Positions 51,055 through 56,467 of a DNA stretch of 64,000 nucleotides are shown one piece after another (position 1 is the first letter of the stretch; the number at the start of each line of letters is the position of its first letter). This stretch comes from Clostridia bacterium. Lineage in GTDB: Bacteria; Bacillota; Clostridia; Christensenellales; CAG-138. The translations under genes were made by a program, and so were the position numbers. The notes under the pieces are model-generated. The model had not been told where the DNA came from. It saw nothing but the letters and a program-made list of their open reading frames with translations, and did no database searches. The stretch covers positions 62,001 through 126,000 of the forward strand of contig JAFXSG010000025.1 in the NCBI GenBank assembly GCA_017525875.1, read 5' to 3'.

Positions 51055-52416
51055 TTATCTGTACGAGCCGACGGTAAGCCCCCTCGGAAGATGGTTCTTC
51101 AGCTGACCGTCCGAGACCTTGCCGAAACCGACGGCGAAGCCGCTGACCGTCACCGGGCAGAAACAGCCGGAGAACTCTTCGGCGTCACTTTCCGAGACGG
51201 GCAGCGTATTCCCTCCGAGGAATGAAAGCAGGAGCGGATCGTCCGGTGCGAAATCGAAGCATTTGCGGTAGCCGAGCCCGTGCGCCGCCATAAAGAACGC
51301 GTGCGAAGGCCTGAGCCTGCCCTTTGTGAATTCACCGACCTCGACCCCGAAAGAAACGATCGGCAGTGAAGCGAGCTCGTCCGGGTATTCGAACGGGCAG
51401 TAAACGAGCTTTTGCCCGTAAACGCAAAGAGGCAGAGCGGACGCGTTTTCGACCGACGCGGAAAGGAACTCCCGAACGGGTCTTTCGAGCGATTTGTCGG
51501 GCAAGCGGAGCGCTGAGCTTTTCTTAGCGGCGTTTCGTTCATCCTTCCTGCCGACCGCGGCGGATCGATCAAGGCTACCGCTGCGAACGAGCCTCGCGGC
51601 GAAATGACCTTCGCCCGTGCAGGTGTGCGGATAAAGGCGGCGGGTCATTTCCGGGGAAAAGTCGGGATGATCCGACAGGAAACCTTCGATCACGCCTTCG
51701 TTTTCTTCCTGCGAAAACGTGCAGGTGGAATAAATGAGCTTGCCTCCCGGCGCGACGCATCGCGCGGCGCTCTCCATGATCGCACGCTGGCGCACGGCGC
51801 AGGAAGCAACGTGCTCTAAGGACCATTCAGCGATCGCCTGCGGGTCCTTGCGGAACATCCCCTCGCCGGAGCAGGGCGCGTCGACTATCACGCGGTCGAA
51901 GTATCCCGGCAGAGCGTTTGCGACCGCATCCGGGTGAGCGCTCGTCACGACGGCGTTTGTCACGCCGAGCCGTTCGAGGTTCCTCGCAAGCTGTTTGGCG
52001 CGGGAGGGGACGATCTCGTTTGAAACGAGCAGGCCTTTGCCGCGGAGCCGCGCCGCCGCGCCGCCGCTCTTTCCGCCCGGTGCGGCGCAAAGATCGAGCA
52101 CCTTCATTCCGGGTTCGATCCCCGCCTCGGCAATAACGCTCATCGCGCTCGGCTCCTGCATATAGAACAGCCCGGCGATATGGTACGGGTGGGTGCCGAT
52201 ATGCTCCGCTTCTTCCAGGAGGACGAGCCCCTCGTCCAGCGTTTCGCTCCGGCCGACCTTCCACGGCGAAAGCTCGAGAAAACGCTCCTTCGAGAGCCGG
52301 AGCGTGTTGACGCGAAGACCGCGCACGGGCGGGAGATCGTACTGCGCGATGAACGCGTCGAACTCTTCTCCGAGCACGGTCTTCATTCTTTCGGTAAATC
52401 CTGCAGGCAGATCCAT
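51055..52416 (-). CDS. rsmF: RsmF-type 16S rRNA (cytosine-C5) methyltransferase
   Basis: 453 aa. SAM loop LDLCAAPGGKSGGAAARL, release cysteine in DAPCSGEGMFRKDP, and catalytic cysteine in YSTCTFSQEENE. The N-terminal PxVRGLRVNTL and the C-terminal RNA-binding/PUA-like part (AAHGLGYRKCFDFAPDDPL) fit RsmF rather than RsmB. It should methylate a cytosine in 16S rRNA. It follows the ABC exporter genes after eight bases and may share their attenuator control, which would be of note if the exporter responds to a ribosome drug. Confidence 0.9.
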   Translation of the reverse strand: MDLPAGFTERMKTVLGEEFDAFIAQYDLPPVRGLRVNTLRLSKERFLELSPWKVGRSETLDEGLVLLEEAEHIGTHPYHIAGLFYMQEPSAMSVIAEAGIEPGMKVLDLCAAPGGKSGGAAARLRGKGLLVSNEIVPSRAKQLARNLERLGVTNAVVTSAHPDAVANALPGYFDRVIVDAPCSGEGMFRKDPQAIAEWSLEHVASCAVRQRAIMESAARCVAPGGKLIYSTCTFSQEENEGVIEGFLSDHPDFSPEMTRRLYPHTCTGEGHFAARLVRSGSLDRSAAVGRKDERNAAKKSSALRLPDKSLERPVREFLSASVENASALPLCVYGQKLVYCPFEYPDELASLPIVSFGVEVGEFTKGRLRPSHAFFMAAHGLGYRKCFDFAPDDPLLLSFLGGNTLPVSESDAEEFSGCFCPVTVSGFAVGFGKVSDGQLKNHLPRGLTVGSYR

Positions 52417-52424
52417 ATTATCCG

Positions 52425-54284
52425 TCAGTTCAGCACGTCCCGAGTGCTGTTTTCGGTGAACTGGGTGGTGTAGAGGTCGTAGTAGTAGCCGCGCAGTTTC
52501 AGCAGTTCGCGGTGGGTGCCGCTCTCGGTGATCTTTCCGCCGCGGATAACGAGGATGCGGTCACAGGAGCGGATCGTCGAAAGCCTGTGCGCCACGATGA
52601 AGCTGGTCCTGTTCTGAAGCACCGTGCCGATCGCGTTCTGTATCAGCGCTTCGGTCTCCGTATCGATGGAGCTCGTCGCCTCGTCGAGCACGAAAATGCG
52701 CGGATCCGCGAGGATGACCCTCGCGAAGCTGATCAGCTGCTTCTGGCCCGTGGAGAGCCTTGCGCCGCCTTCGCCCACTTCGGTGTCGTAGCCCTTTTCA
52801 AGGCTTTCGATGAAGCTGTCGGCATGCACCATCTGAGCGGCGCGGACGACCTCTTCGTCCGTCGCGTCCTTGCGCCCGTAGCGGATATTGTCCCTGATGC
52901 TCCCGCTGAACAGATGCGGGCTCTGCAGCACATAGCCGAGGCGGTCCTGCAGCCAGAGCTGGCTGCGCTCGCGGTAGTCGATGCCGTCGATAAGGATCGC
53001 GCCCCCGGTCGGCTCATAGAAGCGGCAAACGAGGTTGACGATCGTGCTCTTGCCCGCGCCTGTCTCGCCGACGAGCGCGATCTTTTCGCCGGGTCGGACG
53101 GTCAGATCAAAGTGATCGAGCACCTTTTCGCCCTCCTTATAGCTGAAGGAAACGTCGCGGAACTCGACTCCGCCCTCGATCTCCTCCCAGTTCTCGCGCT
53201 TCGGGTCGAAGCAGTCGCCGTACTTCTCGATGACCTCGTCGGAATCGGTGATGTCGCAGGGCGTATCGAGCAGGGAGATGACGCGCTCGGCGCTGGCCTG
53301 CGCGCTCTGCAGCTCCGCGAAGATGCCGGCAAGCTGCTGCATCGGGTCGAAAAGGTTGGTACTGTACGAAATGAAGGAGGACAGCACGCCAATGGTCATC
53401 GTCGTTCCGAAGATCGTGGGTGCGATGACCGTCCTGCCGCCCGCGTAGAGCGCGATGGCGGTCGCGATGGAGCCGAGCGTCATAACGATGGGCGTGAACA
53501 TCGCGGAGAGCACCGCGGCGCGGATCGAGGCCTTCTTCATAGTGCCGGCTTCGGCCTTGAACTCCTCGAAGTTCTTTTCCTCGCGCACGAGGGTCTTGGT
53601 CGTTACGGCGCCCATGATGCCCTCGTTGAAGGCGCTCGTGATGCGGGAGTTCTGCTTGCGCACGATGCGGTGCTGCCTGAGGATCCTGCGCTGGAAATAC
53701 ACGCTGATGACCGCGAGCGGGGGAAGCACAGTGAGGATCACGAGGCCGAGCTTCCAGTTCATAGCAAGCAGGAAGATGATGCAGCCGATGATGTAGCCGC
53801 TCGACCAGAAGATATCGGTCAGGCTCCACGCGATCATCTCGGAAAGGCGGGGGATATCGCCGACCATTCGCGCCATGATGTAGCCCACGGCCGTCTTGTC
53901 ATAATAAGAGAAGGAAAGCTGCTGAAGCTTTTTGAACGCGTCCTGACGGATGTCGTACGCGATCTTCACCTCGAGCTTGCCGCAGAACAGGATGAACGAC
54001 ACGACGCCCGCGCCCTGGAAGAGGACGAAGCCGAGGTAAACGAGCCCGAACGGGAGGAGCTTGCGCAGGCCCGCCTCGCCCTCCGCAACGATGTTGTCGA
54101 TCGCGTAGCGGGTGAGCTGGGGGTAGAGGATGTCCACGAACGCGACGACGAGCATCAGAAAGATGACGCCTACGAAAAGCCAACGGTAGCGCAGCGCGTA
54201 GCGGAGCAGCCGCTTCCAAAGCTTGAGATCTATCTTTTTGCTGAATTCTTCTTCACGAAGAGCGCTGGTCTGAAGGTCTTCCAT
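52425..54284 (-). CDS. Heterodimeric ABC exporter subunit B (non-canonical signature)
   Basis: 619 aa: six helices (residues about 35-330), then one ABC domain. Walker A VGETGAGKSTI, Q-loop YVLQSPHLFSGSI, Walker B with catalytic Glu FVLDEATSSIDTE. The signature is LSTGQ instead of LSGGQ. With subunit A this creates one consensus and one degenerate ATP site, as in BmrCD, LmrCD and TM287/288. Likely cargo: drugs, lipids or peptides. Starts directly after the subunit A stop (TGAATG). Confidence 0.92.
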   Translation of the reverse strand: MEDLQTSALREEEFSKKIDLKLWKRLLRYALRYRWLFVGVIFLMLVVAFVDILYPQLTRYAIDNIVAEGEAGLRKLLPFGLVYLGFVLFQGAGVVSFILFCGKLEVKIAYDIRQDAFKKLQQLSFSYYDKTAVGYIMARMVGDIPRLSEMIAWSLTDIFWSSGYIIGCIIFLLAMNWKLGLVILTVLPPLAVISVYFQRRILRQHRIVRKQNSRITSAFNEGIMGAVTTKTLVREEKNFEEFKAEAGTMKKASIRAAVLSAMFTPIVMTLGSIATAIALYAGGRTVIAPTIFGTTMTIGVLSSFISYSTNLFDPMQQLAGIFAELQSAQASAERVISLLDTPCDITDSDEVIEKYGDCFDPKRENWEEIEGGVEFRDVSFSYKEGEKVLDHFDLTVRPGEKIALVGETGAGKSTIVNLVCRFYEPTGGAILIDGIDYRERSQLWLQDRLGYVLQSPHLFSGSIRDNIRYGRKDATDEEVVRAAQMVHADSFIESLEKGYDTEVGEGGARLSTGQKQLISFARVILADPRIFVLDEATSSIDTETEALIQNAIGTVLQNRTSFIVAHRLSTIRSCDRILVIRGGKITESGTHRELLKLRGYYYDLYTTQFTENSTRDVLN

Positions 54285-56213
54285 TCAGATCGCCTCCTTT
54301 CCGTTTCCGTTTCCGGAGTCAGTGGAATCATCGCCGGAGTTCAGCTCGTCCTCGAGCAGGTTCTGGATATCGGCGATGCGCTTATACAGGCCGTCTGCGC
54401 GGGCGAGCTCGCTGTGAGTGCCCTCCTGGACGAGTCGGCCGTTTTCAAGCACGAGGATCTTGTCCGCACGGCAGAGCGTTGTGATCCTGTGGGAGATGAT
54501 GAACGTGGTCGTACCCTCGCGCCGTGCCTGGAGCGCGTCGCGGATGGCGGCGTCCGTCTCGGTATCGACGGCGCTCATCGAGTCGTCGAGGATGATGATC
54601 GGCGCCTTCTGCATCAGCATGCGCGCGATTGCGACGCGCTGCTTCTGTCCGCCGGACAGCGTGATGCCCTTTTCGCCGACGACCGTGTCGTAACCCTTTT
54701 CAAACGAGGTGATGACGTCGTGCACGGAGGCGACCGAAGCGGCGTCATACACCTCTGCTTCGGGCGCTTCGGGGTCCACGATGCGGATGTTCTCCATGAT
54801 CGTCCTCGAATAGAGGAACGGCTCCTGGAGCACGATGCCGATGTTCTTCCTCAGATGATGCCGTTCGATATCGTTGATGTTTATGCCGTCGATCAGGATC
54901 TCGCCCTCGCGGACGGTGTAGAGCCTTTGAAGCAGCTGAACGAGGCTGGACTTGCCGCTGCCGGTGGAACCGAGGATCGCCACGGTCTCTCCGGGCCGGG
55001 CTGTGAAGCTGATATCCTTAAGCACGTCCTGACCGTCCTCGTAGCCGAAGCCCACGCCGCGGATCTCAACGGCGCCGCGGATCTCGGGCCGGAGCGCCTT
55101 GCCGGGCTCCGCTTCGACCGGGACTTCGAGGATCTCGTTGAGCCTGCCGAGCGAAACGCCGGCCTTCTCAAGGTCCGCAAGGATCCTGCCGAGCTGGCGT
55201 ACCGGCCAGACGAGCATCGAGGTGTAGCTCGAGAATACGAGCATCTCGCCGACGGAGATCCTTCCGCGGATGGTGAAAACGATACCGACCACGAGCGAAA
55301 TGCCGATCTGGATATAGCCGAAGGTGTCGGAAATGCCCCAGAACATCGCCATCAGCCTGTTGAGGCGCAGGTTCTTTTGGGTGTAGTCCTTGTTCTTTGC
55401 GGTGAAGGAATCGAGCTCCGACCTCTGCTGACCGAATGCACGCACGACGCGCATCCCAGCGGCGTTCTCCTGAATGGCGGCGGAGAGCACGCCCTCCGCT
55501 TCGTCGGACGCGGTGAAGTCCTTCTTGACGTTCTTGCAGTAAATGTACGCAGCGACCGCAAGCAGGGGCATCATCATGACGGAGTAGAGCGAGAGCATCG
55601 CGTTCATGCGAAGCATGATGAACGCGGCGATAATGACCATCGTGACCGTACGGACGATCTCGAGCAGCTGGTTCTGAACGAAGCGGCGGATGGTATCCAC
55701 GTCGGACGTGCAGCGCTGGATGATGTCTCCGCTCGAGATATGCTTATGATAATCATAAGGAACGTTCGCAAGGTGGTCGTACAGCCTCGTGCGCATGTTG
55801 TAGGCAAGCAGCTCCGAGCCCCTGGCGACCTCGCTGCGGCGCAGATACACGGAGAAGGCGTTTATGCCGGTCATAAGGATGAGCGCGATCCCCATCAGAT
55901 ACAGGTGGTCGACGAGGAACGCCTTCCCGCCAAAGCCTTCAACGAGCTTTTCGATCCACGGTGCAACGACCATTCCGCCCTGATAACCCGCCTCGGCGTA
56001 ATCGAGCAGCACGTAGTCGATCGTGAAGCTCGTGATGAGCGGGATGCAGTAGGCGGAAAGGTTCGCAGTCAGTATAGCGATCATTCCGGTCACGAAGTGG
56101 TGCACGGTGCCGCGGCTGAACTCGCCTATAAGCTTTCTTATCGAAGCGGCGCGCTGCTTCTTTTTGATCTTTTCTTCTTTTGTGAGTTTAACTTTTTCAG
56201 TCTTCTTTTCCAT
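54285..56213 (-). CDS. Heterodimeric ABC exporter subunit A (degenerate Walker B)
   Basis: 642 aa: a basic N-terminus, six helices, then one ABC domain. Walker A LGSTGSGKSSL, signature LSGGQKQRVAIARML, and Walker B IIILDDSMSAVDTE, where the catalytic Glu is replaced by Asp. This is the expected mate of subunit B: its LSGGQ completes the active site of B. Expression is probably governed by the leader peptide and attenuator just upstream. AAGGTAAT precedes the ATG. Confidence 0.92.
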   Translation of the reverse strand: MEKKTEKVKLTKEEKIKKKQRAASIRKLIGEFSRGTVHHFVTGMIAILTANLSAYCIPLITSFTIDYVLLDYAEAGYQGGMVVAPWIEKLVEGFGGKAFLVDHLYLMGIALILMTGINAFSVYLRRSEVARGSELLAYNMRTRLYDHLANVPYDYHKHISSGDIIQRCTSDVDTIRRFVQNQLLEIVRTVTMVIIAAFIMLRMNAMLSLYSVMMMPLLAVAAYIYCKNVKKDFTASDEAEGVLSAAIQENAAGMRVVRAFGQQRSELDSFTAKNKDYTQKNLRLNRLMAMFWGISDTFGYIQIGISLVVGIVFTIRGRISVGEMLVFSSYTSMLVWPVRQLGRILADLEKAGVSLGRLNEILEVPVEAEPGKALRPEIRGAVEIRGVGFGYEDGQDVLKDISFTARPGETVAILGSTGSGKSSLVQLLQRLYTVREGEILIDGININDIERHHLRKNIGIVLQEPFLYSRTIMENIRIVDPEAPEAEVYDAASVASVHDVITSFEKGYDTVVGEKGITLSGGQKQRVAIARMLMQKAPIIILDDSMSAVDTETDAAIRDALQARREGTTTFIISHRITTLCRADKILVLENGRLVQEGTHSELARADGLYKRIADIQNLLEDELNSGDDSTDSGNGNGKEAI

Positions 56214-56246
56214 ATTATTACCTTGTGCGCTCAGCGCATATCTCCT

Positions 56247-56282
56247 AAAACAAAACGAGCCGGGGCATATACCTGCGGCTCG
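56247..56282 (-). terminator. Attenuator terminator upstream of the ABC exporter genes
   Basis: Minus strand CGAGCCG (56276-56282) pairs with CGGCTCG (56256-56262), with inner GG/CC pairs, followed by TTTTGTTTT (56247-56255). Two competing pairings exist: AAACGAGC (56294-56301) with GCTCGTTT (56253-56260), and CTGCGGC in the leader ORF (56323-56329) with GCCGCAG (56273-56279). Confidence 0.8.
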
Positions 56283-56311
56283 CGTTCCGTTAAGCTCGTT
56301 TGACCGGAAAA

Positions 56312-56404
56312 CTAATCATGAGGCCGCAGAGAGGGGCAAAAAAGGGCATAGCTATAGCTGCTGCGTGCGATAGAGCGTACCCGGACGAATGAAACTTTGC
56401 GCAT
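56312..56404 (-). CDS. Leader peptide (30 aa) of the ABC exporter operon
   Basis: ATG at 56404 with AGGAGG nine bases upstream, stop TAG at 56312-56314. The peptide is basic at the start (MRKVSFVRVRS), then Ser/Tyr-rich (ARSSYSYALF), and ends CPSLRPHD. It lies between a strong promoter and an intrinsic terminator ahead of the exporter genes, which is the layout of ribosome-mediated attenuation (compare bmrB before bmrCD in Bacillus subtilis). The codons for Leu-Arg at its end can pair with the terminator's 5' arm, so where the ribosome stands should decide termination. Too short for a homology call; identified from signals and context. Confidence 0.75.
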   Translation of the reverse strand: MRKVSFVRVRSIARSSYSYALFCPSLRPHD

Positions 56405-56438
56405 TGCAAGCGGCCTCCTTTCCGTAAAAATCATTTAT

Positions 56439-56467
56439 ATTATAACGGCAATGTGGAGAGATTGCAA
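56439..56467 (-). promoter_or_regulatory. Promoter of the leader-ABC exporter operon
   Basis: Minus strand TTGCAA (56462-56467), 17-base spacer, TATAAT (56439-56444), 35 bases before the leader ATG. Confidence 0.75.

Follow-up and report, generated by a model that had tools for sequence, protein, structure and literature searches.

A candidate ribosome-mediated attenuator with a paired Shine-Dalgarno sequence ahead of a heterodimeric ABC exporter in Christensenellales

Ribosome-mediated transcription attenuators are known from vmlR, cplR, hflXr and bmrB. In the bmrB-bmrCD system of Bacillus subtilis, a translated leader ORF, a terminator, an antiterminator and a predicted anti-antiterminator precede a heterodimeric multidrug ABC exporter; bmrB encodes 53 aa and contains the three RNA structures between its nt 60 and 162, induction by antibiotics has been demonstrated, and the available text of the paper does not describe the bmrB Shine-Dalgarno as a switch strand (PMC4191407). 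In cplR and vmlR, stalling of a ribosome on a uORF of minimal length blocks a 5' hairpin and thereby permits an antiterminator, the hairpin being an anti-antiterminator in vmlR and said to sequester the uORF in cplR; both have three-codon uORFs of consensus sequence (MIN; MR[I/M]) and an ABC-F protein as target (PMC10201436; PMC9226507). A cplR figure legend also names an anti-SD element, for a Shine-Dalgarno that it does not specify clearly (PMC10201436). At hflXr (lmo0762/rli80), the uORF lies in the anti-antiterminator region and a start-codon mutation there prevents activation; the peptide has 14 aa with an RLR motif, and the target is not an exporter (PMC6310831). A predicted terminator, antiterminator and anti-antiterminator also stand ahead of the ABC exporter pair patAB of Streptococcus pneumoniae, with no leader ORF mentioned in the available part of that report (PMC4319486). 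Other uORF motifs have been described, among them a leader of the Phe type upstream of Acholeplasma aroF (PMC8632094).

Here we analyze a leader in a 64,000-nucleotide stretch of DNA (hereafter the window) from a Clostridia bacterium of the order Christensenellales. It resembles bmrB-bmrCD and patAB in its observed and putative RNA parts and in preceding an ABC exporter pair, hflXr in a uORF located in the region of a putative anti-antiterminator, and cplR and vmlR in the proposed effect of a stalled ribosome. Unlike bmrB, it is known from sequence alone, and its architecture differs from that described for bmrB (PMC4191407). The leaders of its own family carry unconserved uORFs of 21-39 codons whose last codons pair with their own Shine-Dalgarno, whereas the Shine-Dalgarno of the vmlR uORF is described as single-stranded in the text available. 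A literature search, conducted mostly outside subscription papers, returned no description of this leader or of any leader peptide in this order, no paper combining Christensenellales and leader peptide, and no attenuator of the known kind in the variant where the Shine-Dalgarno is a strand of the switch.

Leader and exporter genes in the window

On the minus strand at 56467-56247, a promoter, a 30-codon ORF behind AAGGAGG and an intrinsic terminator lie upstream of two ABC half-transporter genes and an RsmF-type methylase gene (Table 1). These parts had been reported in a first-pass annotation of this DNA, and all are present; its likening of the locus to bmrB-bmrCD, as a leader ORF and attenuator before a heterodimeric ABC exporter, is also supported. 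The locus thus contains the elements by which a uORF attenuator is recognized, namely a promoter, a translatable uORF and an intrinsic terminator ahead of the target.

Table 1. Positions of the leader elements and downstream genes in the window
Feature	Position	Strand	Basis
Sigma-70-type promoter, TTGCAA-17-TATAAT	56439..56467	-	10/12 consensus positions
Shine-Dalgarno AAGGAGG of leader ORF	56414..56420	-	sequence
Leader ORF, 30 codons + TAG, ATG 56404 to TAG 56312, MRKVSFVRVRSIARSSYSYALFCPSLRPHD	56312..56404	-	peptide not conserved
P1 5' strand GAGGCCGC, overlaps Shine-Dalgarno; putative strand 1 of anti-antiterminator	56410..56417	-	pairing, alignment
Anti-Shine-Dalgarno GCGGCCTC, codons 26-29; P1 3' strand (strand 2)	56320..56327	-	pairing, alignment
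TTTTCCG, predicted to pair with CGGAAAG 56424-56418, extending P1	56305..56311	-	predicted MFE fold of the window leader alone
Candidate antiterminator 5' strand TCTGCGGC, overlaps anti-Shine-Dalgarno	56323..56330	-	complementarity
Candidate antiterminator 3' strand GCCGCAGG, overlaps terminator 5' arm	56272..56279	-	complementarity
Intrinsic terminator GCGAGCCG / CGGCTCGT, 13-base loop, T-rich tract	56247..56283	-	sequence, alignment
ABC half-transporter 1 (ABC1), 642 aa, Walker B ends LDD, likely degenerate site	54285..56213	-	Pfam, sequence
ABC half-transporter 2 (ABC2), 619 aa, Walker B LDE	52425..54284	-	Pfam, sequence
RsmF-type 16S rRNA m5C methylase, 453 aa, 8 bases behind ABC2	51055..52416	-	Pfam

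Both half-transporters match Pfam ABC_membrane and ABC_tran. LDD in one half and LDE in the other are what a heterodimer should show when one of its sites is degenerate, and the two adjacent genes, one with Asp in place of the catalytic Glu, have the sequence features of a BmrCD / TM287-288-type heterodimeric ABC exporter. Among relatives of solved structure, ABCB1-type full transporters score highest; below them come the half-transporters Sav1866, the 6raf/5mkk pair, TM0288 and the BmrCD chains (BmrC/BmrD, YheI/YheH). The divergent plus-strand neighbors resemble groES and groEL.

The first-pass annotation had extended the control to the methylase gene. All six same-genus loci with enough flank (L022, L023, L025, L026, L027 and L036) have an RsmF-type gene after the two exporter genes, and no match at E <= 1e-20 was found in six of six other loci whose sequence extends 1 kb or more beyond ABC2 (L028, L030, L031, L033, L035 and L037). 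The window methylase falls in a housekeeping-type 16S m5C methylase family, and co-control of a methylase is not supported as a general feature.

The terminator is absent from the output of our initial terminator scan, which accepts loops of 3-8 only. The whole leader is no better folded than shuffled sequence (z = 0.78; 159/200 shuffles fold equally well or better), so folding energy alone is no evidence for it, and an Rfam scan of the window returned two tRNAs only, with no match at the leader. Right after the terminator, at 56227-56246 on the minus strand, AGGAGAT stands before a mini-ORF of two codons, ATG CGC TGA (Met-Arg); a small inverted repeat, GCGCTGAGCGC, then precedes ABC1.

Conservation of the leader among relatives

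Of 103 family genomes searched at the protein level, 83 contain ABC1 (E <= 1e-170), and upstream DNA was examined for 70 of these loci (30 + 40; of the remaining 13, G032 was fetched later). A leader consisting of AAGGAG, a start codon, a 21-39-codon ORF and a terminator is located ahead of ABC1 in 36 of the 70 same-family regions, and a 37th, in G029, has a divergent Shine-Dalgarno and was detected by a covariance model. The other 33 regions, from six other genera, are without a leader by this definition, which may miss leaders without AAGGAG and which had only 132 upstream bases to work on in G080. At L034, a leaderless locus from the separate set of ABC loci described below, a PriA gene immediately precedes the ABC gene, and by eye the DNA before several other leaderless loci reads like the same tail.

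Across the 36 leaders, AAGGAG lies 6-13 nt from the start codon, and 35 of them have a -10 box (at least 5/6) no more than 45 nt ahead of the Shine-Dalgarno. Conservation of the ORF and of its stop-terminator spacing had been named in the first-pass annotation as a check, and the comparison bears it out: the stop codon is followed by the terminator after 14-34 nt in 35 of the 36 leaders and after 53 in one. Because orthologues are preceded by these parts in the same arrangement, the leader goes beyond chance; on this comparison, it is a real and conserved element.

The 37 best matches of the covariance model in the 103 family genomes (E <= 2.1e-7) all precede ABC1-type genes; 35 come from the leaders on which the model was built and G008 is a near-copy of one of these, which leaves G125 as the single new match, with its gene identified by eye. 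Matches with weaker E values (e.g., G089, G086, G114 and G107) lie in gene ends before terminators and look like chance. When the model was run on 297 genomes of the order, 29 had a match at E <= 0.001, among them 14 outside the family with one match each. Nine of these 14 precede ABC1 orthologues (39-44% identity over 455-508 residues; families f4, f17 and f23), one stands before a gene that by eye resembles DAHP synthase, and at the remaining four no leader of this kind is seen. An order-wide protein search at E <= 1e-220, a threshold too strict for out-of-family orthologues, returned 14 of the 297 genomes, all in the family. A 22-row alignment including out-of-family leaders misplaced the anti-Shine-Dalgarno and was dropped.

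A strict pattern matched once in each of 14 of the 103 genomes, 13 times at the ABC1 leader and once (G035:C43) at a site resembling the start of another gene. Under a simple rule applied to a separate set of 79 ABC loci, nine (L022-L029 and L036; 57-78% identity) have a Shine-Dalgarno-led ORF and a terminator, with a weak helix in L027; at least several of them share leader ORFs with the genomes above, those of L026 and L027 being identical to those of G005 and G004, and they were not counted again. The other 70 loci have no leader by this rule, which divergent leaders can escape, and L060 and L076 among them are without upstream DNA.

The Shine-Dalgarno helix and the terminator arm

The best-supported element of the leader, absent from the first-pass annotation, is a helix (P1) between the Shine-Dalgarno of the leader ORF and the end of that same ORF. 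In the window, the two P1 strands in Table 1 are complementary to each other, the second lying in the last codons. P1 statistics were obtained from a MAFFT alignment of 35 family leaders made on sequence alone, G008 being dropped as a near-duplicate of G007. The nine pairs of P1 are paired in 85.4% of 308 cells versus 29.5-41.9% when slid by 1-3 columns. Changes on both sides occur in 29 cells versus 12.9 in column shuffles (0/500 shuffles as high), with a covariation score of 0.307 versus 0.210, the shuffles leaving relatedness in place; two measures are less clear, namely double-change pairs (6; 23/500 shuffles as high) and further pair types (16; 49/500). The pair types include GGCCGC/GCGGCC, GGTCGC/GCGACC, GAGCCGTG/CACGGCTT, AGACCGC/GCGGTCT and TCGCGAGG/CCTCGCGG, and RNAalifold, unprompted, predicts P1 together with the terminator from the 35-row alignment.

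Shuffle tests on single leaders are modest, with p <= 0.05 in 24/36 and p <= 0.01 in 8/36; in the contiguous-helix test, 12/36 leaders have p > 0.05, with G067, G068, G004, G113 and G030 at 0.29-0.99. For leaders outside the model, the combined p is 1.4e-6 for nine from other families (shuffles of the ORF), of which G329, G216, G231 and G211 are not at p <= 0.05, and 4e-5 for three from the same family; the model holds six P1 pairs, so its matches lean towards having P1. Helices of 12 pairs in G260 and G029 exceed the modelled pairs. By these comparisons, P1 corresponds to the conserved anti-antiterminator helix expected of a uORF attenuator.

We consider the leader to be probably a ribosome-mediated transcription attenuator of the anti-antiterminator/antiterminator/terminator kind, in which the Shine-Dalgarno serves as one anti-antiterminator strand. 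Strand 1 would be the leader ORF's own Shine-Dalgarno, strand 2 the anti-Shine-Dalgarno near the ORF end, and strands 3 and 4 the terminator arms. With no ribosome loaded, strand 1 would pair with strand 2 and the terminator would form. A ribosome translating through would reach the stop codon and cover strand 2, and the terminator would again form. A ribosome held at the start or the first few codons would cover strand 1 and leave strand 2 free to pair with strand 3, allowing read-through into the exporter genes. The sequence of the peptide would be irrelevant, the location of the ribosome alone being decisive. Comparison across relatives reveals the architecture, the 1:2 helix, the terminator and the absence of peptide constraint; we infer translation of the leader ORF, the direction of control, drug export as the output and, as the trigger, antibiotics that stall initiation or early elongation.

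Strand 1 ends 1-9 nt before the start codon in the 36 leaders; given the usual size of a ribosome footprint, strand 1 would be hidden only while the ribosome stands on roughly the first four codons. By analogy, drugs or stresses that arrest ribosomes at initiation or early in elongation would be expected to act on the leader regardless of the peptide, and the Shine-Dalgarno pairing in this way changes which stalls should turn the exporter on. Likeness to vmlR, hflXr, bmrB and cplR makes a start-stalled ribosome that lets the polymerase pass the most likely mechanism.

The pairing of strand 2 with strand 3 bears on a further claim of the first-pass annotation, that two mutually exclusive pairings can undo the terminator. 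Both pairings exist, with eight pairs each. The first joins the two candidate antiterminator strands in Table 1. The second, AAACGAGC (56301-56294) with GCTCGTTT in the terminator 3' arm, is probably incidental, because no comparably strong form occurs in 10 same-genus leaders (best helix score 8-16 versus 20.5). Six pairs between strands 2 and 3 are compatible in 82.4% of 210 alignment cells versus 24.8-45.0% when slid; their covariation relative to shuffles is not clear, with 36/500 reaching the paired-cell value and 137-207/500 the four change measures. The 2:3 duplex energy is better than in shuffles (p <= 0.05) in 8/35 leaders, with a combined p of 2e-7 from which relatedness is not removed; for the window leader, p is 0.33 with the whole segment and 0.043 with the anti-Shine-Dalgarno alone. 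An antiterminator of strands 2 and 3 is compatible with the design and partly supported by these comparisons. In many leaders, TATGCCCG lies ~15-25 nt before the anti-Shine-Dalgarno (about alignment columns 88-96) and is complementary to CGGGCA of many terminator arms, which suggests a two-part antiterminator; the segment upstream of the anti-Shine-Dalgarno, paired with the terminator arm, gives a combined p of 6e-4, with 6/35 leaders at p <= 0.05.

The effect of ribosome position was calculated by folding the 36 leaders with a 31-nt mask in six ribosome states. Before the 3' arm exists, the 5' arm is predicted to be engaged upstream with medians of 0.66 (none), 0.81 (start), 0.73 (codon 6), 0.58 (codon 10), 0.57 (codon 15) and 0.71 (stop). 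Engagement with a start-stalled ribosome is higher than with none in 33/36 leaders and higher than at the stop in 29/36; relative to shuffled sequence, it reaches p <= 0.05 in 12/36 and falls below the shuffled mean in seven (G002, G006, G007, G008, G034, G107 and G109). The engagement with a ribosome at the stop is unwanted by the proposed mechanism, and this state is not well explained by the model. In G001, G002, G006, G007 and G008 the stop codon lies 25-32 nt past P1, too distant for a terminating ribosome to fully cover strand 2. The full transcript folds into the terminator with a median probability of 0.94 in each of the six states, clear exceptions being G067, G004, G020 and G023. Since the equilibrium fold keeps the terminator in most leaders, the switch, if real, would have to be kinetic.

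Such equilibrium folding without a switch, together with covariation in P1 and the terminator that is not clear in strands 2:3, would also fit a simpler arrangement, in which the Shine-Dalgarno helix limits translation of the leader ORF only and the terminator is autonomous. No functional antiterminator would then exist, and read-through would come about through NusG/NusA pausing or a coupled ribosome pushing the polymerase, for example. The complementarity of strands 2 and 3 in register and their combined p, read with the relatedness it contains, argue against this arrangement, as do leaders ahead of beta-lactamase-fold genes (described below), which by eye apparently keep the same overlap with different letters. 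We regard it as unlikely, though it survives better than the other alternatives.

Leader peptides and leaders ahead of other genes

Whether the peptide itself matters separates position sensing from a specific arrest peptide by which a drug or ligand would be sensed inside the exit tunnel. The first-pass annotation had raised the latter, suggesting that the Ser/Tyr-rich body and the CPSLRPHD end may be a stalling or sensing sequence. ORFs of 21-39 codons are long enough to extend into the tunnel, and a number of the peptides share endings of the form xRP or xRS. However, no peptide sequence or motif, an arrest motif such as RLR included, is shared by eye among the 36 exporter leaders, and a search for the 30-aa peptide in 61 genomes returned, besides itself, weak matches only (15/61 genomes at E <= 10, best other E 0.033). 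The anti-Shine-Dalgarno core falls in ORF frames 2, 0 and 1 in 18, 9 and 8 of 35 leaders, or in 18, 8 and 6 of 32 without G004, G035 and G068, where the aligned core is a poor anti-Shine-Dalgarno. Since it occurs in all three frames, the repeated endings are a by-product of the RNA, and the LRP of the window peptide is anti-Shine-Dalgarno RNA in one reading frame. Six close leader pairs of equal length differ at codon positions 1, 2 and 3 by totals of 28, 32 and 38, about evenly; G081, G082 and G084 account for three of these pairs, and G110/G113, of unequal length, was left out. The use of all frames and the even spread over codon positions argue against a sequence-specific stalling peptide, which we hold to be highly improbable; the leader most likely senses the position of the ribosome. 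An open-frame test (0 stops in 975 codons of frame 0 versus 51 and 36 in the two other frames, with 939 codons each) was discarded, the open frame having been pre-selected.

An amino-acid attenuator, in which the ribosome would stall when one charged tRNA is scarce, has equally little to recommend it. Leaders of that kind do seem to exist in this order. At L221 (G017) and L233 (G084), a Met-rich leader ORF and a terminator stand ahead of an ABC ATPase gene; the G084 gene has Pfam ABC_tran and NIL domains (MetN type), and the leader is a possible methionine attenuator. Phe/Tyr-rich leader ORFs with terminators precede DAHP synthase at L230 (G119, by Pfam), L237 (G124) and L255 (G143), the latter two by eye. 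Ala and Ile are present in 36/36 exporter leaders. Against this explanation, the exporters are not biosynthetic genes, the 36 exporter leaders share no codon run (triple runs occur in five only, of Tyr, Gly, Gly, Ala and Ala), and the Shine-Dalgarno helix is missing in four of the five amino-acid-type leaders tested (combined p 0.48); in the G143 leader, with 7 pairs and p 0.085, it may exist. Least probable of all is a ligand riboswitch or protein-binding leader with an incidental ORF, since the conserved helix and terminator that would suit it come with no Rfam match, and the letters invariant in the 35-row alignment are AAGGAG, by which the leaders had also been selected, and TG in the start codon.

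Short, mutually similar leader ORFs of a second type, TEYSxMTS, were found by the model and pattern searches in G074, G077, G079, G098, G111 (L219:3013-3162) and G113 (L247). A beta-lactamase-fold protein (Pfam) is encoded behind all three that were scanned (G111, G113 and G079), in G079 fused to a GNAT acetyltransferase; the gene in G074 and G077 looks alike by eye, and the G098 contig ends before it. The Shine-Dalgarno helix has a combined p of 5e-7 over the six leaders, which are related to one another, and 0.17 in G111 and 0.11 in G113 alone.

We tentatively raise the possibility, to which we give somewhat less credence than to its opposite, that these leaders form an undescribed, order-level class that uses the ribosome-binding site as the sensor strand, is blind to the peptide and reads the presence of a ribosome on the start region, and that has been put to use repeatedly, before exporters, before beta-lactamase-fold/acetyltransferase genes and perhaps before one DAHP synthase. 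If true, the class would sense stalled initiation and early elongation in general, not one drug. A leader with conserved Shine-Dalgarno pairing and a drifting peptide would make ribosome-position sensing separable from peptide-specific stalling. The exporter pair, itself uncharacterized, and the beta-lactamase-fold family may be under ribosome-stress control in uncultured Clostridia, of which several come from the rumen or gut.
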